Assembly: GCA_020630975.1 (NCBI GenBank)
Contig: JAHDID010000009.1
Coordinates: forward strand, 1-64,000
Origin: Verrucomicrobiota bacterium
GTDB taxonomy: Bacteria; Verrucomicrobiota; Verrucomicrobiia; Verrucomicrobiales; DEV007
Direction: 5' to 3'
DNA length: 64,000 bases
The translations under genes and the position numbers were made by a program. Position 1 is the stretch's first letter. Each line of letters starts with the position of its first letter. Below, piece by piece: positions 22,644-40,069 of this stretch. The notes beneath the pieces were generated by a model. That model worked only from the letters and a program-made list of their open reading frames with translations, had not been told where the DNA came from and did not search any database.

Positions 22644-25600
22644 ATGATCATGAAGTGGCGCGCTATTTTTACTCTTCTGGCTTTGCTCAGCCTTGCCTCT
22701 GCCAGCGACCTACCCGCCGACCATGCGGCTCGGATGAAAGCGGGGACGGAACTATTTCGGGAGACGATCCGGCCTGCTATGGTGGAGAATTGCCTGAAAT
22801 GCCACGGCGACGAAAAGGTGCGAGGAGGACTGGATCTATCCTCGCGTGCGCTGCTGATGGAGGGCGGCGACTCTGGCCCTGCGATCGAGATCGCCGAGCC
22901 AGACGAGAGCTACCTACTGATCCTGATGCGGCACGAGGAGGAGCCGACCATGCCGCCGAAGAAGGACCAACTGCCCGATGAGCTGATCGATGCCTTTCGC
23001 CACTGGATCGCACTGGGAGCACCCTATGATAAGCCGTTGATCGAAAAGGCGGGCGACGAGCCACAGGAGATGAAGATCACCGAGAGTGATCGTCAATTTT
23101 GGTCATTTCAGCCGCTGGCAGATCCCGAGCCGCCGGCGACCGATAGCGACTGGGTGCACACCGATATCGATGCCTTTGTGCATGCCCGGCTGGTGGAAAA
23201 TCAGCTATCGCCAAATGCACCAGCCAGCGATCACGCCCGCATTCGGCGCGCCTACCTAGACATCACCGGTCTGCCGCCGACTATCGAGCAGCTACAGGCT
23301 GCCACCAGCATGACGCACGAGCAGCTGGTCGATGAGCTGCTGGCCAGCCCGCACTACGGCGAGCGCTGGGCACGGCATTGGCTAGATGCGGCGCGCTTTG
23401 CCGAGAGCCACGGATTCGAGCAGGACTACGATCGAAAGTTTGCCTACCACTATAGAGACTTTGTCATCAAAGCGCTGAATACCGACATGCCGTGGGATCA
23501 ATTTGTCCGCTGGAATCTAGCTGGCGACGAGATCGCTCCCGACGATCCGCTAGCGATGATGGCCACCGGCTTTCTCGGCGCAGGCGTCTTTCCCACCCAG
23601 CTTACGGAAAAGGAATTCGAGATCGCTCGCTACGACGAGATGGACGATATGGCAGGCACCACCGGCACCGCGATGCTCGGCCTGACCATTGGCTGCGCCC
23701 GCTGTCACGACCACAAGTTTGACCCGATCTCGGAGCAGGATTACTACCGATTCGTCTCCACCTTTACCACCACCATCCGCAGCGAGATCGACATCGATCT
23801 CGATCCGCAGGCCCACCGCCAGGCACTGGACAGCTGGCAGAAAAATCACGACACTCAAGTGGCAGCCCTAGCCGCCTACCAAGGCGCAGACTACTTTCAG
23901 ACCGGCTATCAGAAGTGGCTGGGCGGCGATCTGCAGGCTGCGATACCACAGGCACCCTGGACCCTGCTCAGCGCTATCCAGGCTACTACCGACAGCAAAA
24001 AAACCAATCTCGAGCTACAGCCAGACGGAGCCCTACTCGCCACCGGCGCCAATCCCGCCAAGGTGACCTACACCATCACCGGTCAGAGCCACCCGCAGCA
24101 GCTACGCCACCTACGCATCGAAGCGCTCACGCACGATAGCCTGAACCGCAAAGGCCCCGGTCGCGCTGGCAATGGCAACTTCGCCCTGAGCCATCTGGAG
24201 CTTTTAGTGAAACCCAAGGGTACAGACAAAGCTACTGCGCTAAAGCTAGTGACAGCAGCCGCTACCCACGAGCAGAATGATAAGCACCTCTCCGTGGTAT
24301 CGGCGATCGATAGCAACAAGTCCGGCACCGGCTGGGCAGTCGACTTCGGCGGCATCGGCAAAGACCAAGCCGCCGTCTACACTCTCGACCAGCCCTACGC
24401 TCTGGCCGCCGGTACCGAAGTGGAGGTGCGCATGGCTTTCCTCAATAATGGACAGCACAGCATGGGCCGCTTTCGCCTATCGCTGAGCGGCGAGGCATCG
24501 CCACCTGTGGCCGTGGGCAATGCGGAAGACGGCGAGCTAAAGGCTGCCGTAGCCGCGACCCAGGCAGGCGCCCCACTCACCGCCGCGCAAGAGGCCAAGC
24601 TAGTCGCTCTCTACGCCAAAGATGATGAGGAGTGGCAGAAGCTGCAGCGAGCTGTGACCGACTCCACTACCAAAAAACCACAGCCGCAGATGGCCAAGGT
24701 ACAAGTGACCAGCGAGGGCTTTCCACCTACCAAACACCACGCCGATGGCCGCGGGTTCCCCCACTTTTACCCCGAGACCTATTTCCTCAGCCGCGGCGAT
24801 CCCAATCAAAAAGGCGAGGTCGCACCACCTGGCTACCTGCAGGTACTGATGCGCAATGGCAAGACAGACGACTACTGGCAGAGCAGTCCACCCGCCGACT
24901 GGACTCGCACCAGCTACCGTCGCACCGGACTGGCCCAGTGGATCACCGATACCGAGCATGGCGCCGGGCACCTACTAGCCCGCGTGATCGCCAATCGCCT
25001 GTGGCATCACCACTTTGGCCGTGGCATCGTCGCCACCCCGAATGACTTTGGCCTACAGGGCGAGCTGCCCACCCACCCACAGCTGCTCGACTACCTGGCC
25101 AGTCGCCTGATCGACAATGGCTGGAGCCTGAAGGCCCTGCACCGCGATATACTGCTCAGCGCTACCTGGCAGCAGAGCAGCGCGCCATCGGCTGAAAAAT
25201 CCAAGGCCGATCCGCTCAACCAATGGCTATGGCGCTACACCCCACGCCGACTCGAGGCCGAGGCCGTACGCGACTCGATACTCACCGCCGCCGGACAGCT
25301 AGATACCAAAATGTATGGCCCCGGCACGCTCAGCGAAAGTCACCAGCGGCGTAGCCTCTACTTCATGATCAAGCGCAGCCGCCTAGTACCGATGATGCAG
25401 ATCTTCGACCAGCCCGAGCCACTCACCAGCCAGGGCAGCCGCCCCAGCACCACCATCGCCCCACAGGCACTGATGCTGATGAACAATGCCCAAGTCGTAA
25501 AATGGGCTCAGAGTCTAGCCACAGCGGTGGCAGTTCAGGAAAGTCCCGAAGCGATCCGCTCCATCTACCTACGCACCCTGAGCCGCGAGCCGAGCGAGGC

Positions 25601-25733
25601 CGAGCTAGCAGCGAGTCTAGACTTTGTCGAGCAGCAGGCCCAGTCCTACGAGGGCGGCTATGCAGGCCGCTATGCGATGGCCGACTTTTGCCAGGTCATG
25701 TTCGGCCTGAACGAATTTATCTACCTACCTTAA
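22644..25733 (+). CDS. Planctomycete-type cytochrome protein, PSCyt1-DUF1549-DUF1553
   Basis: A 1029-aa exported protein; MKWRAIFTLLALLSLASASD is the signal peptide, preceded by an alternative Met two codons upstream. NCLKCHGD (about residue 50) is a class I c-type haem site (PSCyt1). DUF1549 follows (HTDIDAFVHARL, then ITGLPPT, and a second conserved GCARCHDHKFDPIS block). A beta-sandwich insert sits around residues 430-620. DUF1553 closes the protein (ARVIANRLWHHHFGRG, SQGSRPSTTIAPQ). This family is a hallmark of Planctomycetes and Verrucomicrobia and is suspected of a role in polysaccharide degradation or redox, without a proven reaction. It is followed 13 bp later by the DUF1501 gene, its standard partner. 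Confidence 0.9.
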   Translation: MIMKWRAIFTLLALLSLASASDLPADHAARMKAGTELFRETIRPAMVENCLKCHGDEKVRGGLDLSSRALLMEGGDSGPAIEIAEPDESYLLILMRHEEEPTMPPKKDQLPDELIDAFRHWIALGAPYDKPLIEKAGDEPQEMKITESDRQFWSFQPLADPEPPATDSDWVHTDIDAFVHARLVENQLSPNAPASDHARIRRAYLDITGLPPTIEQLQAATSMTHEQLVDELLASPHYGERWARHWLDAARFAESHGFEQDYDRKFAYHYRDFVIKALNTDMPWDQFVRWNLAGDEIAPDDPLAMMATGFLGAGVFPTQLTEKEFEIARYDEMDDMAGTTGTAMLGLTIGCARCHDHKFDPISEQDYYRFVSTFTTTIRSEIDIDLDPQAHRQALDSWQKNHDTQVAALAAYQGADYFQTGYQKWLGGDLQAAIPQAPWTLLSAIQATTDSKKTNLELQPDGALLATGANPAKVTYTITGQSHPQQLRHLRIEALTHDSLNRKGPGRAGNGNFALSHLELLVKPKGTDKATALKLVTAAATHEQNDKHLSVVSAIDSNKSGTGWAVDFGGIGKDQAAVYTLDQPYALAAGTEVEVRMAFLNNGQHSMGRFRLSLSGEASPPVAVGNAEDGELKAAVAATQAGAPLTAAQEAKLVALYAKDDEEWQKLQRAVTDSTTKKPQPQMAKVQVTSEGFPPTKHHADGRGFPHFYPETYFLSRGDPNQKGEVAPPGYLQVLMRNGKTDDYWQSSPPADWTRTSYRRTGLAQWITDTEHGAGHLLARVIANRLWHHHFGRGIVATPNDFGLQGELPTHPQLLDYLASRLIDNGWSLKALHRDILLSATWQQSSAPSAEKSKADPLNQWLWRYTPRRLEAEAVRDSILTAAGQLDTKMYGPGTLSESHQRRSLYFMIKRSRLVPMMQIFDQPEPLTSQGSRPSTTIAPQALMLMNNAQVVKWAQSLATAVAVQESPEAIRSIYLRTLSREPSEAELAASLDFVEQQAQSYEGGYAGRYAMADFCQVMFGLNEFIYLP

Positions 25734-25746
25734 AAACCTAAATCTC

Positions 25747-27186
25747 ATGCACGACCTACCAGATCTCTACTCACGTCGTCACCTACTGCAGCGCGCGGGC
25801 GCGGGCTTTGGCAGTATCGGGCTGGCCAGCCTACTCTCGCAGGAGGGACTGCTCGGCTCAGATCAGTCTGCCGACCCGCTGGCACCCAAGCAAGGCCACT
25901 TCCCCGGCAAGGCCAAGTCGGTGATCTGGATCTTTGCCAATGGCGGGCCTAGCCAGGTCGATACCTGGGACTACAAGCCCGAGCTGGAAAAGATGGATGG
26001 CAAAGAGCTAGAGGGCTTCGACAAAGAGACCGGCTTCTTCGCCAATGCCGTCGGCCCGCTGATGAAGTCGCCATTCGAGTTCACCCCGCGCGGGCAGTGC
26101 GGCAAGATGGTGTCCTCCCTGTTTCCCCACCTGGGCGAGCACGTCGATAAAATGGCCTTTATCCACTCGGGGCACACCGAGTCGAATAACCACAGCCCCG
26201 CCCTATTCATGATGAACTCCGGCCTACCACGCATGGGCTACCCCTGTGTGGGATCGTGGGTCACCTACGGTCTGGGCAGTGAGAGCCGCGATCTGCCTGC
26301 CTTTGTGGTGATGAGCGATCCACTCGACCGCGGCCTGCCAAAAGGCTCGGCGGCCAACTGGAGTGCTGGCTTTCTACCCAGCGTCTACCAGGGCACCTGG
26401 CTCAAGCCCAAGGGCGATCCCATCGACAATCTCAATCGTCCCGCTCACATGAGCGACCTGCAGCAGCAGCGCCAGCTAGGCCTACTCAGCCAGCTAAACC
26501 AGCACCACATCGACAGTCGCCCCGGCGATCAGGAGCTGGAGGCGCGGATCAAAAGCTTCGAGCTAGCCTACCGCATGCAGCAGGCGGCACCCGAGGCATT
26601 CGACATCGAGCGCGAGCCCGAGCATGTCAAAAATCTCTACGGCGTAGGGGAGAAACGCTGCGACCACTTCGCCCGCCAGTGTCTGACCGCACGGCGCATG
26701 GTCGAGCGCGGTGTGCGCTTTGTACAGATCTACTCAGGCGGCATGGCCAATCAGCGCAGCTGGGATGGCCACAACGACATCGAGGGCAATCACAGCCAAT
26801 TCGCCGGCGAGACCGATCAGCCCGTGGCGGGTCTACTGGCCGATCTGGAGCAGCGCGGCCTGCTAAAGGACACGCTGGTAGTGTGGGGCGGCGAGTTTGG
26901 CCGCCTACCGCTATCGCAAAAGAGCAAGAAACCAGGCCGCGATCACAATCCCCACTGCTTCACCACTTGGATGGCGGGCGGCGGTATCAAAGGCGGCGTC
27001 AGCTACGGCGAGAGCGACGAGATCGGCCACCACGCCGCTGTCGATCCCGTGCATGTGAACGACATCCACGCCACCATCCTGCATCAGCTCGGATTCGACC
27101 ACGAGAAGCTCACTTACGTCTACAATGGCCGTCGTTTTCGCCTGACAGACGTCGGCGGACATGTGATTCAGGACATCTTAGCATAG
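25747..27186 (+). CDS. DUF1501 domain protein (exported, sulfatase/alkaline phosphatase-like fold)
   Basis: A 479-aa protein with an N-terminal YSRRHLLQRAGAGFG Tat-type signal. DUF1501 landmarks are FANGGPSQVDTWDYKP (metal-binding Asp), SGHTESNNHSP, SWDGHNDIEGNH and WGGEFGRLPLSQ, followed by GRDHNPHCF. The fold is related to alkaline phosphatase/sulfatase, but members usually lack a sulfatase formylglycine motif, and their substrate is unknown. Positioned 13 bp downstream of the DUF1549/1553 gene, forming a two-gene operon that ends at the terminator at 27416. The last residues, VIQDILA, are typical of the family C-terminus. Confidence 0.9.
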   Translation: MHDLPDLYSRRHLLQRAGAGFGSIGLASLLSQEGLLGSDQSADPLAPKQGHFPGKAKSVIWIFANGGPSQVDTWDYKPELEKMDGKELEGFDKETGFFANAVGPLMKSPFEFTPRGQCGKMVSSLFPHLGEHVDKMAFIHSGHTESNNHSPALFMMNSGLPRMGYPCVGSWVTYGLGSESRDLPAFVVMSDPLDRGLPKGSAANWSAGFLPSVYQGTWLKPKGDPIDNLNRPAHMSDLQQQRQLGLLSQLNQHHIDSRPGDQELEARIKSFELAYRMQQAAPEAFDIEREPEHVKNLYGVGEKRCDHFARQCLTARRMVERGVRFVQIYSGGMANQRSWDGHNDIEGNHSQFAGETDQPVAGLLADLEQRGLLKDTLVVWGGEFGRLPLSQKSKKPGRDHNPHCFTTWMAGGGIKGGVSYGESDEIGHHAAVDPVHVNDIHATILHQLGFDHEKLTYVYNGRRFRLTDVGGHVIQDILA

Positions 27187-27479: not shown

Positions 27480-30400
27480 CTATTGAAATCTGACTATCAG
27501 GCTCCTCCCGCCCATGATGGCCCCTAGCAGCACACAGATCAACAGCAGCCAATATCCACGTCCAGTTGAGCTCTGTATTTTTGACGAGATCTCGAGTTCC
27601 GCGTGGTCTTTGAGCTTTTGAAAATGGATCGGCGCGGTCTCTACGGGAAAGTCCACAGCTATCGAGTAGCGGCCCTGCGGGATCAGAGGTGCAGACAATG
27701 CCTGTGAAGGGTAATAAGTCCCTCCCCCAGCTGCTGCCCCTGAGGGTGATTCGAACCCGAAACCGCCGCCTCCTCCGAATGGATCGGGCTCCATAGCGCC
27801 ACCACTACCAAAGGGATCATCATCGCCCCCGCCAAACGGATCATCATGCATCTCCCCACCTCCGCCAAATGGGTCAGCCCGCCCCACCATGCCTCCTCCT
27901 GCGAAGACTCGAGGGGAGCGAGGCTTACCAGCTGCGCTCTTCGGTAGATCTGGCTGCTCTGCTTGGATAGCAGACCTCGCATTGGACACCCGATTGACTG
28001 CGAGCGTTTCGATAGGCTTTCCATAGTTGATTGCGAAATCATTTTGCTCGTTATTCTGCGATAGATTCAGGGTCGACAGCTTCTGTTGCACCTCATCGCT
28101 GGAGTTACTTTTGTTAAAGAAACTAATCTGGCTTTGAGCGCGATCCGCCTGACTCGCCCCCTTTCCCGATTCGGCATTACTTCCTATAGATTCGCCAAAG
28201 AAATTATTTCCTAGCGATATATTATCATTCAGCCGCAGCTGAGAGCTGACGTTGGTGCGCTGCTCTTCTGCGGCCCGAGCGTTATCCTGGTCCCTAGTTT
28301 TGATATCTCCTGCATTCGATACCCAGGCCGTCTTCGATTCGGTTGGCTCACTCGCGATTTGAGAGGTATCAAAAGCTGGCATCTCGATGCGATTTTCAGT
28401 CAGTACGATTCGTTGCTGAGATAGCTCCTCCTTCAGTTTCTTTAGTTCCTGATTATCGTTATCATCGATCTGCGAGAGTTGAGATTCGATCCGCTCAGCC
28501 AGAGCCAGTCCATTATCATAGCCCAGTGCCTGGCTTCGTTTATCCCCTACTTTGCTCTTACTCGTGGAAAACCAGTTCAAACTCTTTAGCTCATCCAGCT
28601 CGCTCTGCAGCTTTGCCACAGCGCTATCCTCGGCCTGTACTCTCTGCATATTGCCACCCGTATCGACCAACTCATGCCCCTGTGGTAAATGGACTTTCCA
28701 CATGGTCTTTTCTACGGTCATGCCCAGCACTGTGGGATCGTCCAGATTGCGCTTTAGCCGATCACTAGTACCCGACTGCCGTTTACCTACCTTGCGAAAC
28801 ACCACCGACACATCGTATGAGAGCTGCCCTGGCTCAGTCTGAATCAGCGGAATCAGCAGCACATCCTGCCCGTCTATCTTGCCTTTATCGGCTCTCACCA
28901 CCGTGCCTGCCACCGTCACCGATACCAGATCCGCTTTCGGGTCGGCGACAATTGGTAAAAACTGCAAGGAACGGTTCTGCATCCGATACACTGCTTTCAG
29001 CCATTCTTCTCCATTGGCTCGAAAGGCGGTGGTCAATTCTGCAAACTGGATGATCGCATCACTCCCCGCACTCGTCTCCAGACGCTCCAGATCGATGCTC
29101 ATCTGCCACTCTGGTCTAGCTCGGTATAGCTGGGCAGATAGTATCGTTTCGGGCTTGTAGGGCAGCATCGACATCACTGCCTTGTCGACACCCTGACTCT
29201 GGATATCCATCTGAGTGACTGAGCGATTTTCCAGTATCACATAGCGCTCCTGTCGATCGGCTCCGGGTATCGCCAGATCGGGTAGCTGGATGCTATCGGT
29301 ATGCGCCAGCTCCGCCTCGAGTGTCAGAGAGGTGGCACTCGTCAGGTACTCCTGAAAGATCACCTCATAGCGGCGCAGTATATCCGTCTCTGTCACCACC
29401 ACTTCGCGGACCTGATCTCCGATCGCACGAAACTCTGGCGCCCCTACTGCTGTCTCAAACACAAATCGATCGATACCACCCCGACTCACTTCGATATCGG
29501 TGTGTACCGAGAGATCTACCCAGGTATCCTGTATCTGAGCCAGCATCACCCATAGCGAATCATATCGTGACTCCAGCTGAGTGGATATCACCTCGCCGGA
29601 GTAGCTAGCCCTATCGAACCGAAATCCACGCTTTTTCTCCATAGGCGGCAGCACCTCGATATCGCTGCCCACTTCATCGATACCTACCTCACGCACCACT
29701 CGGCGATCCTCTGCAAAATCGATGACCACATCGCGCGTCGTATGAGCTACGACTAGCCCAGTGCCAGATACCTGCTCTTCGGAAAAACCATGAACCCGAA
29801 ACGGACCCATCGCTAGGCTCTGCTCCCCAGCACCCACATCGGTCTGCTCTTGGGTGAGATGGATGAGTAGCGCCGTGACCTCTGGCGTCTCTCCTGCCAA
29901 TCTGACAAACAGATCATTCTCCGTCCGCCACCATTCACGGATCCGGTTACCCTGTACCGATTGCACCTTCGAGTCCGCCGGTATCTCAAAAGCCATCTCC
30001 AGCAGTGGCTCATCCAGAGACGTCACTTGAAATTGGGCTATCGTCTCCAGTTTTGCCGCGCCCACTTGGAATACATAATCCGCTACCACACTTCTCTCTG
30101 CTTCTGCGCTCGATAAGGCATAGTCTAGAGCTTCGTCCTGCCCCGTCAGGGAAAAGGTACTCACTGGGATGAAACCGGATTTTCCATCGGCATCGCCACC
30201 CGATGTGATCTGTCGGTGATTCACTCCAGGGTCTGCTTTGATCCGAATCCCATTAGCACGCAGTATCTCTCGCCGCTGCTCGATCCGCGTCGCCTCCGCG
30301 CTCAAATGGGGGAACCGTCGCTGACTAGCAGTCTCATCTTTCGCCGAATACACCCGCTCTCCAGCAAAGCGAATCACTAGAGAATCCTGAGCAGGCTGAC

Positions 30401-33400
30401 TGAGCGAAAACGACAACTCCCGCAGTCCGCTATCGACCCGATCCGCTATCTGCCAATGTGATAGATGAGGTATATCAAATGAGACAGGCGTAACGGAACG
30501 ATCAAACGAGATCGAGAAATCGGATTTCTCCTGCCCCGAAAACTTCAATTGATACTCGGCCTCAAGCTGCTCCAAACCCTGAGCCACGAACAAGCGAGCA
30601 TTGATGAGCCCTAGACTCGGGCGAGTCGATCGATGGGCAGAAGTTTTCAACCTGCGGCGAAACTGTACCTCTCCCGCCTGTCCGATCGCAGCCGTATAGG
30701 TCGTATTTCCATCCTCGATCCTCTCAGCTAGAGGCCAATCACCCTGCAGCACTGGCTCTGCCACCTCACTGTCCATTTTGATCTCCAGCAGCGTCGCCGA
30801 GCACTGTGGCACCTGCCACTTGGCCGAGTCCTGCCCCTCGACGATCGGTACCTTTAGCTCCACATCTATCACATGCTGCCCAGGCTCCTCCACGAGTATG
30901 GCACCCTCTCGCATCGCTGCGGTTTCTCCGTTCAGCCGGATACTCTCGACACTCACTCCAGAGAAAGCCAATGGCACCTTCTGCCAGCCTCTACCGCGGG
31001 TATGCAGTGCTAGCCGTCCAGATACGGCGATCTCCTCAGTCGTCGACTTCACCCGGTACAGCGCACTCGTCAGATCATAGCTCTTCTTCACCTCTGGCTC
31101 GCCCCCCCCAGTTTGCTCCTGCCGATAGGTTTTTACATCCTGCCACAACTTCTGAAACGAATCGTAATCCAGATAATACCGAGTGGCTGACTGCTCCGAT
31201 AGAGGCACTTCCACATCGTAAGGCACATACACCGTATGTGGAGCCAGACTTTCCTCTGCGGCACCCCATACAGGAAGTATTAACAAAGCTATCAAAGCTG
31301 TCGCTCTACCTATCCGGCGACTCAGCGCATAGGCAAACCAAATTCCGATACCCGCCAGCCAACCGAGTAACAAGGCATTGCAGACGATCGCCACACCTCC
31401 GGTGATCGCCAATGGTAGCAAGCCCAGTAAAACGCCACCCAATAACCCGATAAAAATCGGCATCCGTGCATACCTCCAAGCCCCAATCACAAAAGCCAGA
31501 AACCCAAAACAAATCCACAACCATGCTACCCGGATCTGGCGCTCCCAATTCACATAGCGAAACGCAATCGGCTCTGGTGCGTAAAAGCCATCAAATCCGT
31601 AAAACCTGCCAGACTGCGGCAGATCGAACTCCATAGGCAGGCGACCGATATCGCCGACATCAAAACCTTTCAATCGAGCCGCTCCACCCAGAAACGCTTC
31701 GGATAGGCGGAGATCGTTTTCTTTGGCATTGGGACTCTCGACCATCTTAGCGACCTCTTCCGAATAAGTCGTCATGACAGCCTCCAGATTGGGCTGAGTG
31801 TTTCGGATCGATAGCCTCTTACTCACTAAGTCGTACACCGCACTAGCGCCGTCCGGAAAGGCTACCCCTGCTTGCACCAAAACCGCCTTGGCATGGCGTG
31901 CCTTCACGGTGTTGCCTTCCAGCGACTGGAATACGCGAGGTGGCAGAGGGATCTGGACTAAAACCATACCATCTTGCTCCTCAAAGAGAGCCCTCACATC
32001 GCTCAGACTCGTTACCAAGGGGTAGATGGAAGCCGAAACTGGCGCTGCCGAAACACCAACTCCAAACGTTGTAGCAGCCTCCTCGTCCATCACATATCCA
32101 CCATTGCCAAAACTCTCCAAAAACGCCTCAACCAACGCCATTTCATTTGGCGTGTTTTTAACCGTCAACTCACCAAGGGAGGCATCGTAACTAGCTGACG
32201 ACCCTGCACCAAAAGTGATACCAGCTGACTCAAAGAACTCCTTCACCGATGGCGCCTCTGCGAGTGGCTGAAAAAACTCCGGAGGAGCGGCGTACTGATG
32301 AGCGACCACCTCTCCACTACTATGCCGAGCGATGATGGACACCTCATCTGAATTCACCCGATAGCTCACCGAAGCCAACTGTGTGGTGTATCGAAGCGCC
32401 TCAGCCAGAGGTACATTAGTCAAACGCAGTGTAACGGGGACGTTTTCAACTCCTGCAGCCTCAATAATGATAGGCACCCCTGTACCCTCTGGATCCAACT
32501 GCGCAGACTTCGTTTCCAGAAAAGCAATTGCATCGCTCAGCGGGGTGTCTGCAAACTCAACACTCGGCAGCCGAAGATTCCGCAGCTTATCCTCAGTGGC
32601 ATGCCTAGCACTGATGCTATAGTCGACCGCTCTACGGACAATCGGAGTAAGTGGCAAAGCTTCAAAATCCACTCCCGACCGAATCGACTCTTGATATGCC
32701 TCAACCAATTCCATCTGGTCAGGAGTGTTCTTTATGATTAATTGACTTGTTGCTGGATTATAAATAGCCGTAGCTCCTGGCGGGAAAGAAATACCAGCAT
32801 TCTCTAATACCTCCCTAGCCGTCATTTTCTTCAATATAGGTCTCTCATCAGGATCTGGAGCGGCAAACGGATCAATAGGCCCACCACCTCCTACTGAGAA
32901 GCTGCTCAGAAAACCGGGCGGAACGGTATAGGCGTTCATAACCAACTCCTGATCCGGCCTCGAAAGTGGCACGACTACGATTGCATTCGCTTCCACCTTA
33001 TACTTCATCTGTGCTAGGCTGGTAGTATACCGCAGCACTTCACCTAGCGACACGTTGCTTAGCTTTAGTGTAATCGGGGTGCTACCCACACCACCTGCTT
33101 CCGCAGCTCCATTCCCACCACCGAAACCAAACCCACTATCATCTTCTTGCTGAGACTCACTAGCGGCCGCCAATGGAGCATCCAAGATAATGTTTATCCC
33201 GTTCAACTGAGGGTCTAGATCAACACTTTTCGATTGGATGAATTGCAGCGCATCTCTCAACGGCGTTTCACTGAATTCGATGCTCGGAATTCTGATCGAT
33301 GTCAGCAGATCTTCATTTCTGATCATGGCGTCTACTTCCATATTGGAACCTAGCCCTAGCTCCGGCTCAATTGCCTGCGGCACAGGCGACTCCCAGCCTT

Positions 33401-36299
33401 CCGCTACCTGGCGCAAAAAGGCAGCGCGAGTGTGATCGCGAGCCACATCGTAGTAGTTCATTCGTTCACGCTCATTCGGAGCGAGACTTGATTGCGGAAC
33501 AGAATCATTTCCCTCTACCATCAAACGATCCGCTATATATTCTGAAGGTTTAAACCTCCTGGGCACTCGAATCTCCCCCAGCAAAAACCGATTTTCGATC
33601 TCAAACTCCTGCTGAAGATTGGACCGGAAACGCTGGTAGTCATACCCCTCTGGCAGGTACAAATTCCATTTCGAAAACAGCACTGGTATCGCAGCCGACA
33701 CCGAAATAGGGCTTAGCTTCTCTCTACCAGAACCACGCCAGCGATCTCCCGGCGTTTGGTAAATGATCTGAACCTTCGCCTGCTCGCCGTCGGCATGTTT
33801 TTCCGATAGCAACACCCGCAGGCGATCCCGACCGCTGCGCACTGGCTTCATCCGCTCGCCATCGATGAGCAGACTCCAGAGCACAGCCTCAGCCGGTAGC
33901 TGAACATCCAAAAACTGCTCACCTGACGAGCGCACCTGCAGCCTAGCCTGATGCCTTGCCGGGCCATCTGTCGATACGACGGTATCCAGCAGCAGCGAGT
34001 CGACCACCGTGGACACGATGGTAGCATGCGGGTGACGAGTCCCAGCGAGATCGATGCCCCACTCCCCATCTCGATACCGGTAGGCGGCGATCACTCGGTG
34101 CCGTGGACGATAGCCAGAGATCGATGGCACCTGTAGCGAATCGACCTGATCCACCCCCATGGTATCAAAAGTGATCTCGGTATCGGTATTGGCCTCGACC
34201 ACCCAGGTCCCAGTGGTGCGCTTCGCTGCAGGCACGCTCAGCCTCGGCAGACTCACCGCAAATCGCTTCTTGCCTTTGATATTCTCAGACTCAGCAACCG
34301 TCAGTGGCAAATTGATCGAGTACCGCACCGCCAAAGACCCGCTCACCTCATCCTGAAAGGTCAGGGTCCAATCCCCGCTCTCCTCATCTCTGGTCTGATG
34401 AGTCAGCCCCGGTGAGGAAAAGCGAACCAACTGCGAAACCGACTCATCGACCTGAACGGTCAGCTCCTGGATACCTGAATTGGCGATAGCCAGACTGATC
34501 TGCCCCTCGATTTCCAGACTATTGGCAAGTGGCAACGCATACGCTGTGATAGCCGCCTCTATCTCTGCTGGACGCCGAGTCGCTGACAGAGTCAGCGAAT
34601 AATCATCCAGACGAAACCAAGCGAGACTACCGGTGACGGGAGTCTTGCGCCCATCGCGCGGCTCCAAGCCAGATGACTGCCCAGTACGAATCGAAAATGA
34701 TGAGTCATATCGAACCGCCAAATACCCCGATACGGTCTCGGCTCCGGCCACTAGCAGCGGCTCTAGCTGCAGCTCCATCGGCTCCTCCCCGAGCTGATAC
34801 CAGCCCTCTGGATCGCGCCGCGACTCGATCTTCACCTGTGTCGGCGTCGCATTGCTCAGCCCATCGCTCCAGCGTAGGATCACCGTACCATCTTCCTCTA
34901 CCCAGCTAAAGTCATGTCTCTCGGCACACGTGACCGCTACCAATTCCTCCGCTGTCGGCAGCTCGACGGTCGCCGAAAACAAATGCCCCTCGATAGGGAT
35001 ATAGCTAGCCGATCGAGTCACAAATATAGCCTCTCTCTCGGCTCTCACACTGGTATCCAAAGCCACCGTGAAACGATCCCTGATACCCGACAATGTCACC
35101 ACCGGCGCACTCTGCTGGATGGGAAACTGAAACGATGCGACATAACCCGGCAGCGCGGCCATAGCCGTATCGATCCCATCAGGCACGGGCACGGTGAGAG
35201 CGGCTGTCTCGATCTGTTTGATCCTGACATCCTCAGAGCCCAGTATCGTAAGGGTACCCGACGAGCGGTGAATCCCCTCGATATCGACACTCGGTAGAGC
35301 CACAGCCTCGTCGATCTCCGTCGCACCGATAGGTGACTCCAGGCGTATCCGCAGCGCCGCACTGCGCCTACTGCCAGACTGCAGCTTCACTTCTATATTG
35401 CCACCGCCTTTGCGAGTCCAGCCAGCCAGCTCCACCCCATCGACACTGAGCACCTTGGCCCCAGTCGGTAGCGACATCGTGAATCGCTCTGGCAAATCAC
35501 GTAGATTTGCATTGATGACCACCCCCAGATCACCCAGCACTCGAGTGGAGTCGATTTTATATAGATAGGAGCAGGTCTGAAAAATAGCGGCCCCTGGAAT
35601 AGCAGGCACCTCTCGCTCTGTCCATGCCACCTGCCAGCAGCCACCTTTATCCGAGGGCAGCACCAGCTGAGCACGCCCACCGGCATCGATATAGAATGGC
35701 AACTCACTGGTCATCTGAGCCCCCTCAGGCAGCTCCAACTGCAGGCTAGCTGCGGCAAGCCCTGGACTGTGAATCTCGATCGCCTCACCACCTGCTACCG
35801 ATGCGACTGGCAGGTGAAACTGTGCCACCACTGAATGAACCCCGACTCCATGAGTATAGAGCAGCGGACTCTTCTGCCCGACCACCCGTAGCGCCCCTTC
35901 GCCATCTATGGTGACCCGCCCGAGGTGAGTCGTCGGCAGAGGCAGTGGCACCTCGGTCCACCCATCCTGCTGAAGTATCTCCACATCGTAGGTGGCCTGA
36001 ATCTCCACCACAGCCTCACCAGGTACGATCTCGCCACGCATCTCGACCGAGCGCACCACACCGGGCAGCGGCGGTGCCAGCGATTCCTCTGCATCGGCCA
36101 GCTGAGCACGAGCCGCATCGGTAGCGAGCGTCTGATACTGCTCAGGTGTCAAAAATACCGCCCGGGGTTTTTGTTTGAGCAGAGTCTCCAACTGGTCTAA
36201 TGGCAGCCAAAGCTCGCGGACATCTTGGCCGCTACTCATCGCGGCAAGAGAAACCAGCAACCAAGCAGAGAAGGTTAACAAAGTGTGAGTTTTCATCAC
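27480..36299 (-). CDS. Giant membrane-anchored exported protein, apparent tandem fusion with secretin-N0-like repeats
   Basis: A 2939-aa product. It starts with a signal peptide (hydrophobic to about residue 24, SSGQD), then an N-terminal domain LWLPLDQLETLL..VFLTPEQYQTL. Periplasmic beta domains run to about residue 950. Three secretin-N0/STN-like units follow near residues 995-1520 (IPSIEFSETPLRDALQF, LPSVEFADTPLSDAIAF and LVQIPLPPRVF, each with an 'A/S-x-Y-x-x-x-x-x-x-L' strand and ALRYTT helices). A multi-helix membrane domain lies near 1590-1665. At about 1660-1680 RRIGRATALIALLILPVWGAAEES reads like a signal peptide (shown in part: TALIALLILPVWGAA), and then a second copy of the N-terminal module starts (VYVPYDVEVPL..YYLDYDSFQKLW). 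The tail has coiled-coil/Asn-rich sequence, DPFGGGG repeats and a last transmembrane helix. The next gene upstream (36316) is a third copy of the same architecture, 16 bp away. Function unknown. Confidence 0.75.
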   Translation of the reverse strand: MMKTHTLLTFSAWLLVSLAAMSSGQDVRELWLPLDQLETLLKQKPRAVFLTPEQYQTLATDAARAQLADAEESLAPPLPGVVRSVEMRGEIVPGEAVVEIQATYDVEILQQDGWTEVPLPLPTTHLGRVTIDGEGALRVVGQKSPLLYTHGVGVHSVVAQFHLPVASVAGGEAIEIHSPGLAAASLQLELPEGAQMTSELPFYIDAGGRAQLVLPSDKGGCWQVAWTEREVPAIPGAAIFQTCSYLYKIDSTRVLGDLGVVINANLRDLPERFTMSLPTGAKVLSVDGVELAGWTRKGGGNIEVKLQSGSRRSAALRIRLESPIGATEIDEAVALPSVDIEGIHRSSGTLTILGSEDVRIKQIETAALTVPVPDGIDTAMAALPGYVASFQFPIQQSAPVVTLSGIRDRFTVALDTSVRAEREAIFVTRSASYIPIEGHLFSATVELPTAEELVAVTCAERHDFSWVEEDGTVILRWSDGLSNATPTQVKIESRRDPEGWYQLGEEPMELQLEPLLVAGAETVSGYLAVRYDSSFSIRTGQSSGLEPRDGRKTPVTGSLAWFRLDDYSLTLSATRRPAEIEAAITAYALPLANSLEIEGQISLAIANSGIQELTVQVDESVSQLVRFSSPGLTHQTRDEESGDWTLTFQDEVSGSLAVRYSINLPLTVAESENIKGKKRFAVSLPRLSVPAAKRTTGTWVVEANTDTEITFDTMGVDQVDSLQVPSISGYRPRHRVIAAYRYRDGEWGIDLAGTRHPHATIVSTVVDSLLLDTVVSTDGPARHQARLQVRSSGEQFLDVQLPAEAVLWSLLIDGERMKPVRSGRDRLRVLLSEKHADGEQAKVQIIYQTPGDRWRGSGREKLSPISVSAAIPVLFSKWNLYLPEGYDYQRFRSNLQQEFEIENRFLLGEIRVPRRFKPSEYIADRLMVEGNDSVPQSSLAPNERERMNYYDVARDHTRAAFLRQVAEGWESPVPQAIEPELGLGSNMEVDAMIRNEDLLTSIRIPSIEFSETPLRDALQFIQSKSVDLDPQLNGINIILDAPLAAASESQQEDDSGFGFGGGNGAAEAGGVGSTPITLKLSNVSLGEVLRYTTSLAQMKYKVEANAIVVVPLSRPDQELVMNAYTVPPGFLSSFSVGGGGPIDPFAAPDPDERPILKKMTAREVLENAGISFPPGATAIYNPATSQLIIKNTPDQMELVEAYQESIRSGVDFEALPLTPIVRRAVDYSISARHATEDKLRNLRLPSVEFADTPLSDAIAFLETKSAQLDPEGTGVPIIIEAAGVENVPVTLRLTNVPLAEALRYTTQLASVSYRVNSDEVSIIARHSSGEVVAHQYAAPPEFFQPLAEAPSVKEFFESAGITFGAGSSASYDASLGELTVKNTPNEMALVEAFLESFGNGGYVMDEEAATTFGVGVSAAPVSASIYPLVTSLSDVRALFEEQDGMVLVQIPLPPRVFQSLEGNTVKARHAKAVLVQAGVAFPDGASAVYDLVSKRLSIRNTQPNLEAVMTTYSEEVAKMVESPNAKENDLRLSEAFLGGAARLKGFDVGDIGRLPMEFDLPQSGRFYGFDGFYAPEPIAFRYVNWERQIRVAWLWICFGFLAFVIGAWRYARMPIFIGLLGGVLLGLLPLAITGGVAIVCNALLLGWLAGIGIWFAYALSRRIGRATALIALLILPVWGAAEESLAPHTVYVPYDVEVPLSEQSATRYYLDYDSFQKLWQDVKTYRQEQTGGGEPEVKKSYDLTSALYRVKSTTEEIAVSGRLALHTRGRGWQKVPLAFSGVSVESIRLNGETAAMREGAILVEEPGQHVIDVELKVPIVEGQDSAKWQVPQCSATLLEIKMDSEVAEPVLQGDWPLAERIEDGNTTYTAAIGQAGEVQFRRRLKTSAHRSTRPSLGLINARLFVAQGLEQLEAEYQLKFSGQEKSDFSISFDRSVTPVSFDIPHLSHWQIADRVDSGLRELSFSLSQPAQDSLVIRFAGERVYSAKDETASQRRFPHLSAEATRIEQRREILRANGIRIKADPGVNHRQITSGGDADGKSGFIPVSTFSLTGQDEALDYALSSAEAERSVVADYVFQVGAAKLETIAQFQVTSLDEPLLEMAFEIPADSKVQSVQGNRIREWWRTENDLFVRLAGETPEVTALLIHLTQEQTDVGAGEQSLAMGPFRVHGFSEEQVSGTGLVVAHTTRDVVIDFAEDRRVVREVGIDEVGSDIEVLPPMEKKRGFRFDRASYSGEVISTQLESRYDSLWVMLAQIQDTWVDLSVHTDIEVSRGGIDRFVFETAVGAPEFRAIGDQVREVVVTETDILRRYEVIFQEYLTSATSLTLEAELAHTDSIQLPDLAIPGADRQERYVILENRSVTQMDIQSQGVDKAVMSMLPYKPETILSAQLYRARPEWQMSIDLERLETSAGSDAIIQFAELTTAFRANGEEWLKAVYRMQNRSLQFLPIVADPKADLVSVTVAGTVVRADKGKIDGQDVLLIPLIQTEPGQLSYDVSVVFRKVGKRQSGTSDRLKRNLDDPTVLGMTVEKTMWKVHLPQGHELVDTGGNMQRVQAEDSAVAKLQSELDELKSLNWFSTSKSKVGDKRSQALGYDNGLALAERIESQLSQIDDNDNQELKKLKEELSQQRIVLTENRIEMPAFDTSQIASEPTESKTAWVSNAGDIKTRDQDNARAAEEQRTNVSSQLRLNDNISLGNNFFGESIGSNAESGKGASQADRAQSQISFFNKSNSSDEVQQKLSTLNLSQNNEQNDFAINYGKPIETLAVNRVSNARSAIQAEQPDLPKSAAGKPRSPRVFAGGGMVGRADPFGGGGEMHDDPFGGGDDDPFGSGGAMEPDPFGGGGGFGFESPSGAAAGGGTYYPSQALSAPLIPQGRYSIAVDFPVETAPIHFQKLKDHAELEISSKIQSSTGRGYWLLLICVLLGAIMGGRSLIVRFQ

Positions 36300-36315: not shown

Positions 36316-39300
36316 CTATGCTTCTTCCTCGTCTTGAGCGACTCGTTTAGCCGACTCCTGCTCCTGCTTATACTGCCGTCGGGCTTTGAGTTTCCGACTC
36401 AGCCATAAAAAAGGCGCTGCGATCAACCCACCCAGCCATTTGATGAAACGAGGAATCCCCCTAGCGATCCAGACTAGCACACCGAGCAGAGTGCCTAGGT
36501 AGATAGCCGTCCAGAAGCTAGCGGCTGACGGACTAACAGCCCCAGCGATGACCAGTGGCAACGCACCAAACACCATGAAGTAGAGAAACCGCCAACGCAC
36601 ACTGCGCCACAGCAAAAGCACCGCTCCCGCAAACGCTAACAACCCGACAAACGCCTCTAAGAATAGTGCATAACTCTGCGCCCGATAGACCACACGGATA
36701 TCGCTGGGAGCATCCAGCCGGTGAAAGGCATACTTTCGCCCTCCCGTCGGCAGCTCCATATCAAAACCCGCCTGCTGAGACTGCTGCAGTGCTGGTGGGT
36801 CCTGCCATAGCCCACTATCGCCCACAGCCAGCTGAGGACCTAGAGTCGGCACCAGCCAATCAAACGCATTGCGAAACCGAGTCCAGCCGCGCTCCGACAC
36901 TGGCATCGACATCGCACTCTTAAACTTTCGGTACCGATAGCCCTCTGGCACATACAGCTGAATACGGCTCTGTAGTACCTCCGCATCGGTCAGCTCTACG
37001 ATCGGGATATCTACCGAGCCGACTCCCAGCTTCTTGCCAGGATGCTCGCTCGGTATCTGATAGATAAACCGAATCGGAAAGGTCGCATCATTCTGTTTGG
37101 CAGGCAGGCGGATCAGCACCACATCCTCATTGGCCCGGCGCATCGGCTGCTGCGGCTGACCATCTACAAATATATCACTGACGATCTGGCCTCCCTCGGG
37201 CAAATCGATACTAAAGAATTGTTTGGCATTGTTCTTCACCCAGTAGATGACCTGAGTGGTGAGCGCCGCATCGCTACTCAATACCGATGTCACATCGGCG
37301 TAGGTAGCCACCGCCTGCGGCACAGGTAGAAATTCATTGCGACTGACCGCCAGATCCAGAGCGTGAGGATGGCGACGGTATTTGTAGGACAAAAAGATCC
37401 CCGAGCGACGCAGCTGTGAGTTGAGCTCCTGTGGGTCGATCGATTCCAGAGACGTCGTCTGAGCATCGAGTATTTCCAGATTGTCATCTTTGGCGATAGC
37501 GATCTGCCCGGTCTCGGTCTGTACCTGATGTAGCTGGATCTCCGGCAGCGACACTGCGAAATTCCGCGCATCACCAGCAGGATCCGCACCATCCTCCAGC
37601 TCGAGCACCAGGGCGTTGGTTGGCTGATCGAGAAACAGCTTTAGCTGGTAAGTGCCCATCTGCTTATCACGCAGCGACACCTGCCAAAAGCGATGCCCAT
37701 CTGGCGGCGTCATCCCCTCCTCGGTATAGGATTTATCGACCTCTTTGATCAAAGCCCCTTCATGGCGCAGATCCTCAGCGATACTCTCTGGTACTGAGAG
37801 CAAAAAGCTATCCACACCAGCGTAGCGGACACGATAGACGACTGTCCACTGGTAGCGAATGATCTGCTCTTTCACCTCGACCATGGTCAGCACCTCGCCA
37901 GTGACTTGCGGCTTTTTCAGGGTGTAGCCGATGGTGGCCGGAGCCGCTTTGCCTCGATAGCGAAATCCGATCTGCATACTACCCGCCCCCGGTATCCGCC
38001 CACCGAGTAGACTCACCTCCTGCTGGCGCAGATCGCCCAGATCAGTCGTGCGCGGATCGAGACTGGAGTCGATCGATAGCCCCACCTTGCCCTCATGCCG
38101 CTCGACATCCTGCGGCGAGAAAACGGGTATCACCGTAGCGGAGTCGGCCGCTGCTCTGATCTGTCGCCCCGTCACCGTTATCGCCGTCGTACCGAGCGTC
38201 CGATTGCGCAGCGTCACGGTGAGGATACGAGTACCATCCACCGTCTCTTCGCTATAGTCTTTCACATCTGGCCCCGCGGCCTCGATGCCATCGAACCCAC
38301 TAGGTATCTCGATGCGAGTCGCAAAGATCCCAGCGCGCTTGATATCATAATCAAAACGCGTGGTAAACTTGGCCGAATCTGTCTCGACCTCGTAGCGAGT
38401 CCAGCTCTCCACCTCCACTACCGGCTCCGCCTTTTTGATAGCTAGTGATAGGTCATAGGGTAGCGCTAGGTAACGATAGCGAGCATAGGGTAGTCCCTCG
38501 TCCACTGTGTCATTACCGACTTCCAGAGACTGCTGAGTCAGACCAGAGTGCCTGAGCGTCTCCAGCTCTAGCTCCGAACTATACGTCACCAGTAGCGAGC
38601 CCCGCTGGCGCACCACATCGCTCGCCTCGATCTGCGGTAGCGACAGCTCCGTCGGTAGCGAGCCGATAGCCTGCTCCAGTAGTATTTTCAGCCGATAGCT
38701 CTCGCGCGCCTCAGAGTGCAGCGCCACCTGTAGCACCTGCTGCTGGCCCGATTTCTCCACACCCCACTCGCGTATATTTTCGCCCTGTACACTCAGGATC
38801 TCCTGCCCCTCGGGCACCTGTACGGCAAACGTCTCTACCGGCGATCGCAGGATCCGATAGTCCAAGGTCATCGAGGTCTGAAGCGCGCCCGGCACTACCG
38901 ATACCACCGTATCGCTATCGACAAATAGCAGCGGAGTCAGCGCTGTCTCTTCTCCCTGCTTCTGCCAAGTCAGGTGAAATTTTTCGGTCTCGCCAAAAAA
39001 GAACGACAATTGAGTATCGCTACCTTTATCCACAGTCGAGTAGGCCGACGCTGGCTTCAAATCAAAGTCCCAACCTTGATCGGGGATAGTCGCCTCGAAC
39101 TTCGATACTCCCGCTTTAGGCAAGGTGATGTGCACATCATTCTTTCCTGCTTCACTGAGCACCTTGGCATAGAGCTTCAGCTTTATCGAATAGCTGCCCT
39201 TTTTCGGCAAGATCAGCTCGTACCCCTTCGCCCCGAGGAGCAGCGTGGCATCACCCGTCTCCGCCTCGGCGATATTCAGTCCAGACTTGGCTAGCGGCAC

Positions 39301-39777
39301 CACAGCCCAGCCCTCTTCCTTAAAGCTCTCCACCTCGAACTCCGCCTCCACCGCCAGCACCCGATCCTCGTCGCCCTCGACCGTAGCGCGGTAGCTAGCA
39401 TTGGAGATCACGCCATCCGTAGGCGGCTTCTCCTTATCCTTTTCCTTCTCGATGGTCAGCTGATTCCACAGATCGAGGAACTCGCGATACGGCAAAAACA
39501 CACCTCGCCCCTCCTTCTCAAAGACCTCTTCCAGTTCGTCGTAAGGCAGGTAGATCGAGCGCTCAGACTTGATGATCTCAGGTTCCACTTTCGCCTCAGC
39601 CTCAGCCTTCTCTTTCACCGCCCCAGTCACCTTAGGACGCGCCTTAGGCTTCCCTTCAACCGCTTTCTTTCTCGCCACAGGGGGCAACTTTCTATCACCT
39701 GCATCCTGCGCTGACAGAGTCGTCGATAAGCCAAGGAACGGCATAATGAAATAGACAAGAATTGATGATCGGCTCAT
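36316..39777 (-). CDS. Exported membrane protein of the same family as the 2939-aa protein
   Basis: A 1153-aa protein from the Met at 39777 (MSRSSILVYFIMPFLGL, signal peptide, cut near SAQD); an in-frame start at 39828 would place 17 residues before it. A charged Lys/Pro/Ala linker precedes SIYLPYDELEEVF..VFLPYREFLDLW, which is collinear with both halves of the neighbouring giant. Long beta-rich periplasmic domains follow, then QLYVPEGYRYRKFKS and MELPTGGRKYAFHRLDAP, matching NLYLPEGYDYQRFRS and MEFDLPQSGRFYGFDGFYAP in the giant. Four or so membrane helices close the protein (around 36450-36680), with a basic/acidic cytoplasmic tail ending DEEEA. It lacks the N0-like repeats. Sixteen bp separate its stop from the giant's start, so one operon. 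Role unknown; envelope scaffold is a guess. Confidence 0.75.
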   Translation of the reverse strand: MSRSSILVYFIMPFLGLSTTLSAQDAGDRKLPPVARKKAVEGKPKARPKVTGAVKEKAEAEAKVEPEIIKSERSIYLPYDELEEVFEKEGRGVFLPYREFLDLWNQLTIEKEKDKEKPPTDGVISNASYRATVEGDEDRVLAVEAEFEVESFKEEGWAVVPLAKSGLNIAEAETGDATLLLGAKGYELILPKKGSYSIKLKLYAKVLSEAGKNDVHITLPKAGVSKFEATIPDQGWDFDLKPASAYSTVDKGSDTQLSFFFGETEKFHLTWQKQGEETALTPLLFVDSDTVVSVVPGALQTSMTLDYRILRSPVETFAVQVPEGQEILSVQGENIREWGVEKSGQQQVLQVALHSEARESYRLKILLEQAIGSLPTELSLPQIEASDVVRQRGSLLVTYSSELELETLRHSGLTQQSLEVGNDTVDEGLPYARYRYLALPYDLSLAIKKAEPVVEVESWTRYEVETDSAKFTTRFDYDIKRAGIFATRIEIPSGFDGIEAAGPDVKDYSEETVDGTRILTVTLRNRTLGTTAITVTGRQIRAAADSATVIPVFSPQDVERHEGKVGLSIDSSLDPRTTDLGDLRQQEVSLLGGRIPGAGSMQIGFRYRGKAAPATIGYTLKKPQVTGEVLTMVEVKEQIIRYQWTVVYRVRYAGVDSFLLSVPESIAEDLRHEGALIKEVDKSYTEEGMTPPDGHRFWQVSLRDKQMGTYQLKLFLDQPTNALVLELEDGADPAGDARNFAVSLPEIQLHQVQTETGQIAIAKDDNLEILDAQTTSLESIDPQELNSQLRRSGIFLSYKYRRHPHALDLAVSRNEFLPVPQAVATYADVTSVLSSDAALTTQVIYWVKNNAKQFFSIDLPEGGQIVSDIFVDGQPQQPMRRANEDVVLIRLPAKQNDATFPIRFIYQIPSEHPGKKLGVGSVDIPIVELTDAEVLQSRIQLYVPEGYRYRKFKSAMSMPVSERGWTRFRNAFDWLVPTLGPQLAVGDSGLWQDPPALQQSQQAGFDMELPTGGRKYAFHRLDAPSDIRVVYRAQSYALFLEAFVGLLAFAGAVLLLWRSVRWRFLYFMVFGALPLVIAGAVSPSAASFWTAIYLGTLLGVLVWIARGIPRFIKWLGGLIAAPFLWLSRKLKARRQYKQEQESAKRVAQDEEEA

Positions 39778-40069
39778 GAGCAGGGTAGAAAATTCGAAGT
39801 TTAAGGTGAACCAAGTAACCCGGCTCACTCCACAGCTTATTCGAAAAGTTTTAGGGATTTGTGAAATAAATGTAAAGTTTTTCAGAGTGAGAAAAAATCC
39901 TAGACGGCTCCGAACCTACACCTCAAAAGCCCTGCAATCGAAAAAACCTCACCAACCAAGCTAGCGACTACAGACCTCGGTTACCTAGACCCAAAACAAC
40001 ATAAGAACCCATCGGATATTTGATTGACAGAAACGCGAAAAACCAGGAACTCTCAAAACACGACGATGA
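39778..40069. other. Non-coding region upstream of the envelope-protein operon
   Basis: No gene supported. The A/T-rich part around 39840-39900 (AAATAAATGTAAAG) could carry the promoter of the minus-strand operon, but no convincing -35/-10 pair was identified. A 62-codon plus-strand frame at 39776-39964 has no recognisable protein character. Confidence 0.35.

Follow-up and report, generated by a model that had tools for sequence, protein, structure and literature searches.

The 2,939-codon open frame at 27480-36299 (minus strand) of the window, the 64,000-nucleotide stretch of contig JAHDID010000009.1 of a Verrucomicrobiota bacterium (GCA_020630975.1) analyzed here, raises the question of whether two envelope proteins have been fused in it and, if so, what becomes of the export signal of the second. 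The genome assembly comprises 7.14 Mb in 158 contigs and is 96% complete. The frame is listed with a GTG start, directly followed by an ATG that is the likelier one. Gene B (36316-39828, minus strand, 1,170 aa) ends 16 bases before it, and the two form a tight minus-strand pair with long plus-strand frames on both sides; elsewhere the window carries a PSCyt/DUF1501 pair (22644-27186) and a long GcpE gene (43158-44945, 595 aa). Our main reading, to which we assign a probability of roughly 0.6, is a lineage-specific fusion of two genes, A1 and A2, that kept the A2 signal peptide and would yield a polyprotein cut by signal peptidase I. The features are as follows.

36316-39828, minus strand: gene B, the third paralogue (by homology), with an N-terminal hydrophobic segment, a beta module and three helices
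36228-36299, minus strand: putative signal peptide of A1, about residues 1-24, judged by eye from the sequence
33576-36227, minus strand: A1N, residues 25-908, beta module homologous to B and A2, with predicted M1-N-like sandwiches at 236-404, 407-574 and 577-755
31665-33518, minus strand: A1R, residues about 928-1545, inserted Amuc_1098/PilQ-type periplasmic repeats, no pore domain matched
31314-31547, minus strand: A1T, residues 1585-1662, three predicted transmembrane helices, common to the C-terminus of B
31257-31313, minus strand: the joint, residues 1663-1681, former A2 signal peptide, now internal, with a signal-peptidase-like site GAA↓EE (low model confidence)
28620-31256, minus strand: A2 beta module, residues 1682-2560, fold of the same kind as A1N
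27549-28619, minus strand: A2 tail, residues 2561-2917, Ser/Gly/Ala-rich, with DPFGG repeats
27492-27548, minus strand: C-terminal transmembrane helix, residues 2918-2936

The sequence-only reading had proposed that the N-terminal module recurs in the second half of the protein, and had named a lack of profile similarity between the halves as the result that would speak against a fusion. The module does recur after residue 1682. BLASTP of the two halves reports a match (3.6e-8). When a profile built from 35 rows of the first half is compared with one built from 29 rows of the second, the A1 and A2 modules align from residues 23 and 1684 on with high significance (829 columns, probability 100, E 2.1e-73). 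Residues 28-895 match gene B residues 90-973 by BLASTP (23% identity, 4.9e-42), and the stretch 1556-1671 matches B residues 1022-1137 (33% identity, 1.7e-8), as expected from the claim that the helices before the recurrence correspond to the membrane domain of the neighbor. For A2, BLASTP returns local matches only, to B (8e-5) and to A1N. Therefore, B, A1, and A2 are three paralogues. Pfam at E 1 reports no match for B and, for A1, only a sub-threshold STN match inside A1R; among the alignment rows, those of the window have no Pfam match and single other members have scattered weak ones, while NCBIfam at E 0.01 reports none for the 35 A1-half and 29 A2-half members. Within these sequence searches, the modules are an envelope family that spans two phyla and carries neither a Pfam nor an NCBIfam name.

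AlphaFold models of residues 1-930 (mean pLDDT 83.4, pTM 0.49) and 1545-2560 (mean pLDDT 81.4, pTM 0.43) are nearly all beta, except for the membrane helices and short N-terminal helices. An M1 aminopeptidase N-terminal domain is matched by each of the three A1N sandwiches (Z 10.6-11.2, rmsd 3.6-4.2) and by A2 segment 1738-1885 (Z up to 13.2). In the comparison across tandem lumenal domains, Ost1/ribophorin I tops the structural second-look lists of both halves (Z 12.7-15.1 for A1N and 13.4-14.1 for A2, over 304-346 residues). The rmsd across domains is 20.8-22.9, which presumably reflects differing angles between the domains, and the TM-scores in Foldseek are 0.14-0.16 by query and 0.23-0.32 by target. 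Ost1 is also first in Foldseek for A1N; for A2, it comes after two integrin chains. Integrin, complement, and AP2 chains reported by Foldseek were set aside as generic beta repeats, which is a judgement since the Ost1 TM-scores are also low. Searches against solved structures at the sequence level return weak interleukin-10 receptor matches for A1N only (E 0.2 and 0.53) and nothing for A2, and no ribophorin model occurs among the 11 and 12 Pfam families matched at E 1 by the 35 and 29 members. Ost1 orthologues are described as widespread among eukaryotes in a paper on the origins of N-glycosylation (PMC4973528), and no paper on a bacterial relative of Ost1 was found in the literature searched.

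Are the halves separate genes elsewhere? A scan of named genomes with the full 2,939-aa protein found no relative; a second one with the B alignment returned 45 loci, which were read with profiles for B, A1, and A2 and comprise 14 fused, 15 split, 2 ambiguous, and 14 unclassed ones, the latter being of insufficient length, filled with N, or lacking A1 and A2 (L049, L053-L055, L058, L064, L065, L072, L076, L078, L079, L082, L090, L092). The ambiguous L066 and L088, left unlabelled in all change counts, appear to be fused frames that a frameshift has interrupted; in L088 (7148-14684), from Planctomycetota, the frameshift lies inside A2 and may be real or an assembly error. The operon order in relatives is often B, A1, A2, and B is its own frame in every row of a 34-row table. 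The separate adjacent genes that the sequence-only reading suggested looking for are indeed present: A1 and A2 are distinct in L050, L051, L052, L057, L059-L063, L067, L069, L071, L075, L080, L089, G037, G057, G060, G063 (its A1 is cut, and it was left out of the tree), G079, G085, G145, G180, and G183. They share one frame in 22 proteins, namely the window's, G024, L056, L068, L070, L073, L074, L077, L091, G214, and G038, seven from Planctomycetota (L081, L083-L087, L093), and four from other classes of the phylum (L094, L095, L096, L103). Of 386 genomes drawn from the order, 45 match A2 at 1e-20. In 13 of these the match lies in a frame of at least 1,900 aa; ten strong ones are taken to be of this type I arrangement, G100 and G107 by score and frame length only, and three are of type II (G023, G189, G282). 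The draw from the phylum gave a match in 18 of 387 genomes. Type II relatives (L097-L102, L104, L107-L111) have a single frame of ~2,100-2,420 aa with two B-like modules split by about five helices and a further signal-peptide-like one, and no separate B match in the stretches read. Regarding the flanks, listed for 27 loci with 21 chosen proteins scanned, no Pfam family recurs beside the operon; a rhomboid-protease gene lies directly downstream of the fused A1-A2 in L042 only (L042:14875-15615), and the equally long frame found at this position in L046 has no Pfam match. Records L054, L056, L068, and L067, all metagenome bins, are titled Akkermansia muciniphila or Prosthecobacter debontii; the tree places L056, L068, and L067 at distant positions, which makes these titles look unreliable.

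Which state came first was read from trees of B, A1, A2, and the joined alignment. In all of them the window pairs with G024 (support 100), next to the split L069 (98-100), and the surrounding clade consists of the split L050, L051, L080, and L052 (93-100 for B, 99-100 for A1 and A2 with some open forks, 98-100 joined), such that the five nearest relatives are all split. These are quick LG+G4 trees with gene-tree branch lengths, built from metagenome assemblies, with warnings for long branches meeting (A1 and A2 trees) and uneven letter make-up, and in the joined tree the Planctomycetota-titled rows do not form a single clade. A fused pair nested in an all-split clade argues that the fusion is derived in the window's lineage, which we hold to be very probable on these gene trees, and loss of the stop and start region between adjacent genes, as originally proposed, is the best reading here. 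The fewest state changes are 5 (B tree) and 6 (A1, A2, and joined trees). When the labels of the joined tree (44 rows with a label, 21 of them fused) were shuffled 1,000 times, the minimum was 9 and the mean 15. A two-rate model gives a probability of the fused state of 0.03 at the window-G024-L069 node and below 0.01 at the next seven nodes outward. The comparison thus shows homologous halves, separate genes in the nearest relatives, and, on these gene trees, a derived fusion.

The sequence-only reading had also held that full-length homologues intact across many distant phyla would count against a fusion. This objection stands in part: fused full-length forms do occur in Planctomycetota and in other Verrucomicrobiota classes, which makes fusion a recurrent state and not a one-off accident. 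An improbable alternative takes the fused state as ancestral everywhere, the split genes as products of repeated fission, and the window as a keeper of the old form. All seven classed Planctomycetota rows and the four rows of other classes are fused, and the two deepest nodes lean the same way (0.70 and 0.82), but 11 fissions would be needed, the log-likelihood of fission only is -27.0 as against -17.7 for two rates, and the scheme is already disfavored for the window's lineage; a scheme of fusion only, with 8 events and a split root, reaches -19.0 and is not rejected. That the fusion is an assembly or base-calling error is hardly credible. The nearest named relatives are metagenome-assembled, but the frame is open across the joint in two assemblies made separately, over 2,939 codons in the window and at least 1,970 in G024, and errors more readily split frames than fuse them.

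Of the 12 split loci examined, 9 have a 4-nt overlap between the stop of A1 and an in-frame start codon of A2 (eight ATG or GTG, and one TTG in L071), and therefore a small length change could fuse the frames. In the window, the helices end at residue 1662 and the former signal peptide follows directly; the hydrophobic stretch 1663-1681, which ends in VWGAA↓EE and overlaps and follows RRIGRA, has the signal-peptide shape first noticed in the bare sequence. The idea that the second half is thereby placed in a strange topology did not hold up. Since A1 has three helices, its C-terminus is predicted to be cytoplasmic, and the old signal peptide would insert from inside to outside, leaving A2 periplasmic as when it is a separate protein. 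Consistent with this, the summed loop charges are inside-positive in 21 of 21 fused proteins scored, L056 being skipped because only three peaks were found. The joints of L068, L074, and L116 contain the sequence SFVIRHSAF, similar to an intergenic repeat drawn into the reading frame, and L066 of the same clade is broken there. Ahead of the old signal peptide, these three joints also have an in-frame ATG with a stretch weakly resembling a ribosome site, as if A2 could be made separately as well from an internal translation start in the fused gene. For the window this is very improbable: the only in-frame starts at its joint (1636-1670) are GTG1636, TTG1643, and TTG1669, none with a normally spaced ribosome site.

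A signal-peptidase-like site is found at 18 of the 22 fused joints, including the window's, by a rule of our own in the third form tried. A first, looser motif was dropped as undiscriminating, and a second, stricter rule (15/22 vs 9/67) missed the window itself and was replaced. The final rule reports the first match, and some reported sites differ from the choice by eye. The helix two places before the joint, in the same orientation, passes in 3 of 22 proteins (Fisher 1.2e-5), and all other helices together pass in 20 of 67 cases (p 3.4e-5); counted back from the joint, the passes are 4/22, 3/22, 11/21, and 2/2. Helix 3 of the window, just before the joint, also passes, as does helix 1 in 11 of 21 proteins; the end of helix 1 is expected on the cytoplasmic side of the membrane, on which signal peptidase is not active. 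The joints of L068, L070, L074, L077, L091, and L116 pass in 6 of 6 cases and those of Planctomycetota in 5 of 7, while L056, L073, L081, and L087 fail, each with an alanine at -1 by eye and a charge or tyrosine nearby. We consider cutting at the window's joint by signal peptidase I somewhat favored, as a prediction from this site. A less probable alternative is that the protein stays uncut, with the old signal peptide spanning the membrane as a fourth helix and tethering one periplasmic module to the other. Recurrent fusion is what a useful tether would lead one to expect, four of the 22 joints fail the rule that 20 of 67 other helices pass, and type II joints are not enriched in the site (5/12 vs 3/12). 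On the other hand, the site is present at 18 of 22 type I joints, and the joint helix is predicted to be short, 15 residues vs 26, 19, and 26 for the preceding three, though with low confidence (block pLDDT 54, 38, 45).

The region A1R, skipped by the alignment of A1 with the neighboring B and absent from the account of the sequence-only reading, consists of secretin-type repeats matching NCBIfam NF042912 in four stretches (whole-protein E 2.9e-98). The window protein scores 329.9 bits, below the family cut-off of 750, and the match covers positions 199-457 of the 805-position profile (199-456 in its best stretch), with no pore domain matched. Amuc_1098 is annotated as the Akkermansia PilQ secretin, with the secretin domain at 650-876, in PMC4960237. 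Residues 928-1214 (window 32658-33518) share 69-72% identity with G000:C128, the secretin of the same genome, which itself scores 933.9 bits, above the cut-off of the Amuc_1098 family; BLASTP identity to the other 25 secretin rows compared is at most 54%. In a 32-row tree, from which three inserts under 200 aa (L050, L061, L091) had been dropped beforehand, the inserts of the window, G005, and G024, the three genus members compared, each group with the secretin encoded in the same genome (100/99, 91/97, 96/70), the G024 pairing being weak and on a long branch. A clade of the window and G005 inserts is rejected (82 log units, p 3.9e-6), this pair having been chosen with knowledge of the BLAST result. 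The inserts of the window, L002, L134, and L135 likewise track their own genome's secretin and not the orthologous insert. Hence the secretin gene has apparently served, lineage by lineage, as the template from which A1R was recopied or by which it was converted, as its sequence grouping suggests. Split relatives such as L059 and L067 return no A1R match; therefore, A1R is accessory, and any link to the pilus concerns only part of the family.

How might the fused gene work? We infer all the steps that would follow from it. The signal peptide of A1 would export A1N, the three A1 helices would insert into the membrane, and the kept A2 signal peptide would reinsert and deliver A2 to the periplasm. 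Signal peptidase I would then cut at GAA↓EE, giving A1 with a three-helix anchor and A2 with a C-terminal helix anchor in 1:1 amounts. More loosely, B, A1, and A2 could form an inner-membrane-anchored periplasmic scaffold of ribophorin-like beta-sandwiches, a role for which we see about even odds, and the PilQ-type repeats of A1 might contact partners of the type IV pilus secretin; a physical link of the complex to the secretin itself is doubtful. Only tentatively would we extend this polyprotein reading to a PVC-wide ribophorin-like family in which the junction was erased about five times in parallel, each time giving a polyprotein cut by signal peptidase, with the secretin-tracking insert as its link to the type IV pilus. 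Gene fusion normally tethers two proteins, and the A1-A2 joint seems built so that the tether is unnecessary. Its repeated fusion and separation are replicates set up by nature, with which one can ask whether producing two subunits from one chain benefits a bacterium. The insert, in turn, is a first functional handle on an envelope family whose predicted fold resembles a subunit of the eukaryotic N-glycosylation machine.

Four known systems invite comparison. Single domains of both halves resemble the M1 aminopeptidase N-terminal domain (Z 10.6-13.2, rmsd 2.9-4.2), but the HExxH zinc motif and GxMEN are absent from the window protein and from B. Ost1/ribophorin I leads the structural second-look lists of both halves, a likeness of predicted fold that implies no function; however, identity is 7-12%, there is no sequence-profile match, and A1 of the window has three helices where Ost1 has one. 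A1R carries the periplasmic repeats of Amuc_1098/PilQ, close in sequence to the genome's own secretin, but only those that precede the secretin domain. A parallel to the joint is the Bradyrhizobium fbcH gene for cytochromes b and c1, in which a multi-helix protein is followed in one frame by the signal peptide of a second protein, and the precursor is cut into two membrane-anchored chains. The window protein has the same build, a multi-helix protein and an internal signal peptide in one frame: its halves are separate in relatives and joined in frame here, an odd number of helices, with loop charges in the inside-positive pattern, precedes the signal peptide, and the joint carries a signal-peptidase-like site more often than the other helices do. 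In contrast to fbcH, the proteins are different, cleavage is only predicted, and the fused and split states of A1 and A2 alternate within one operon family.
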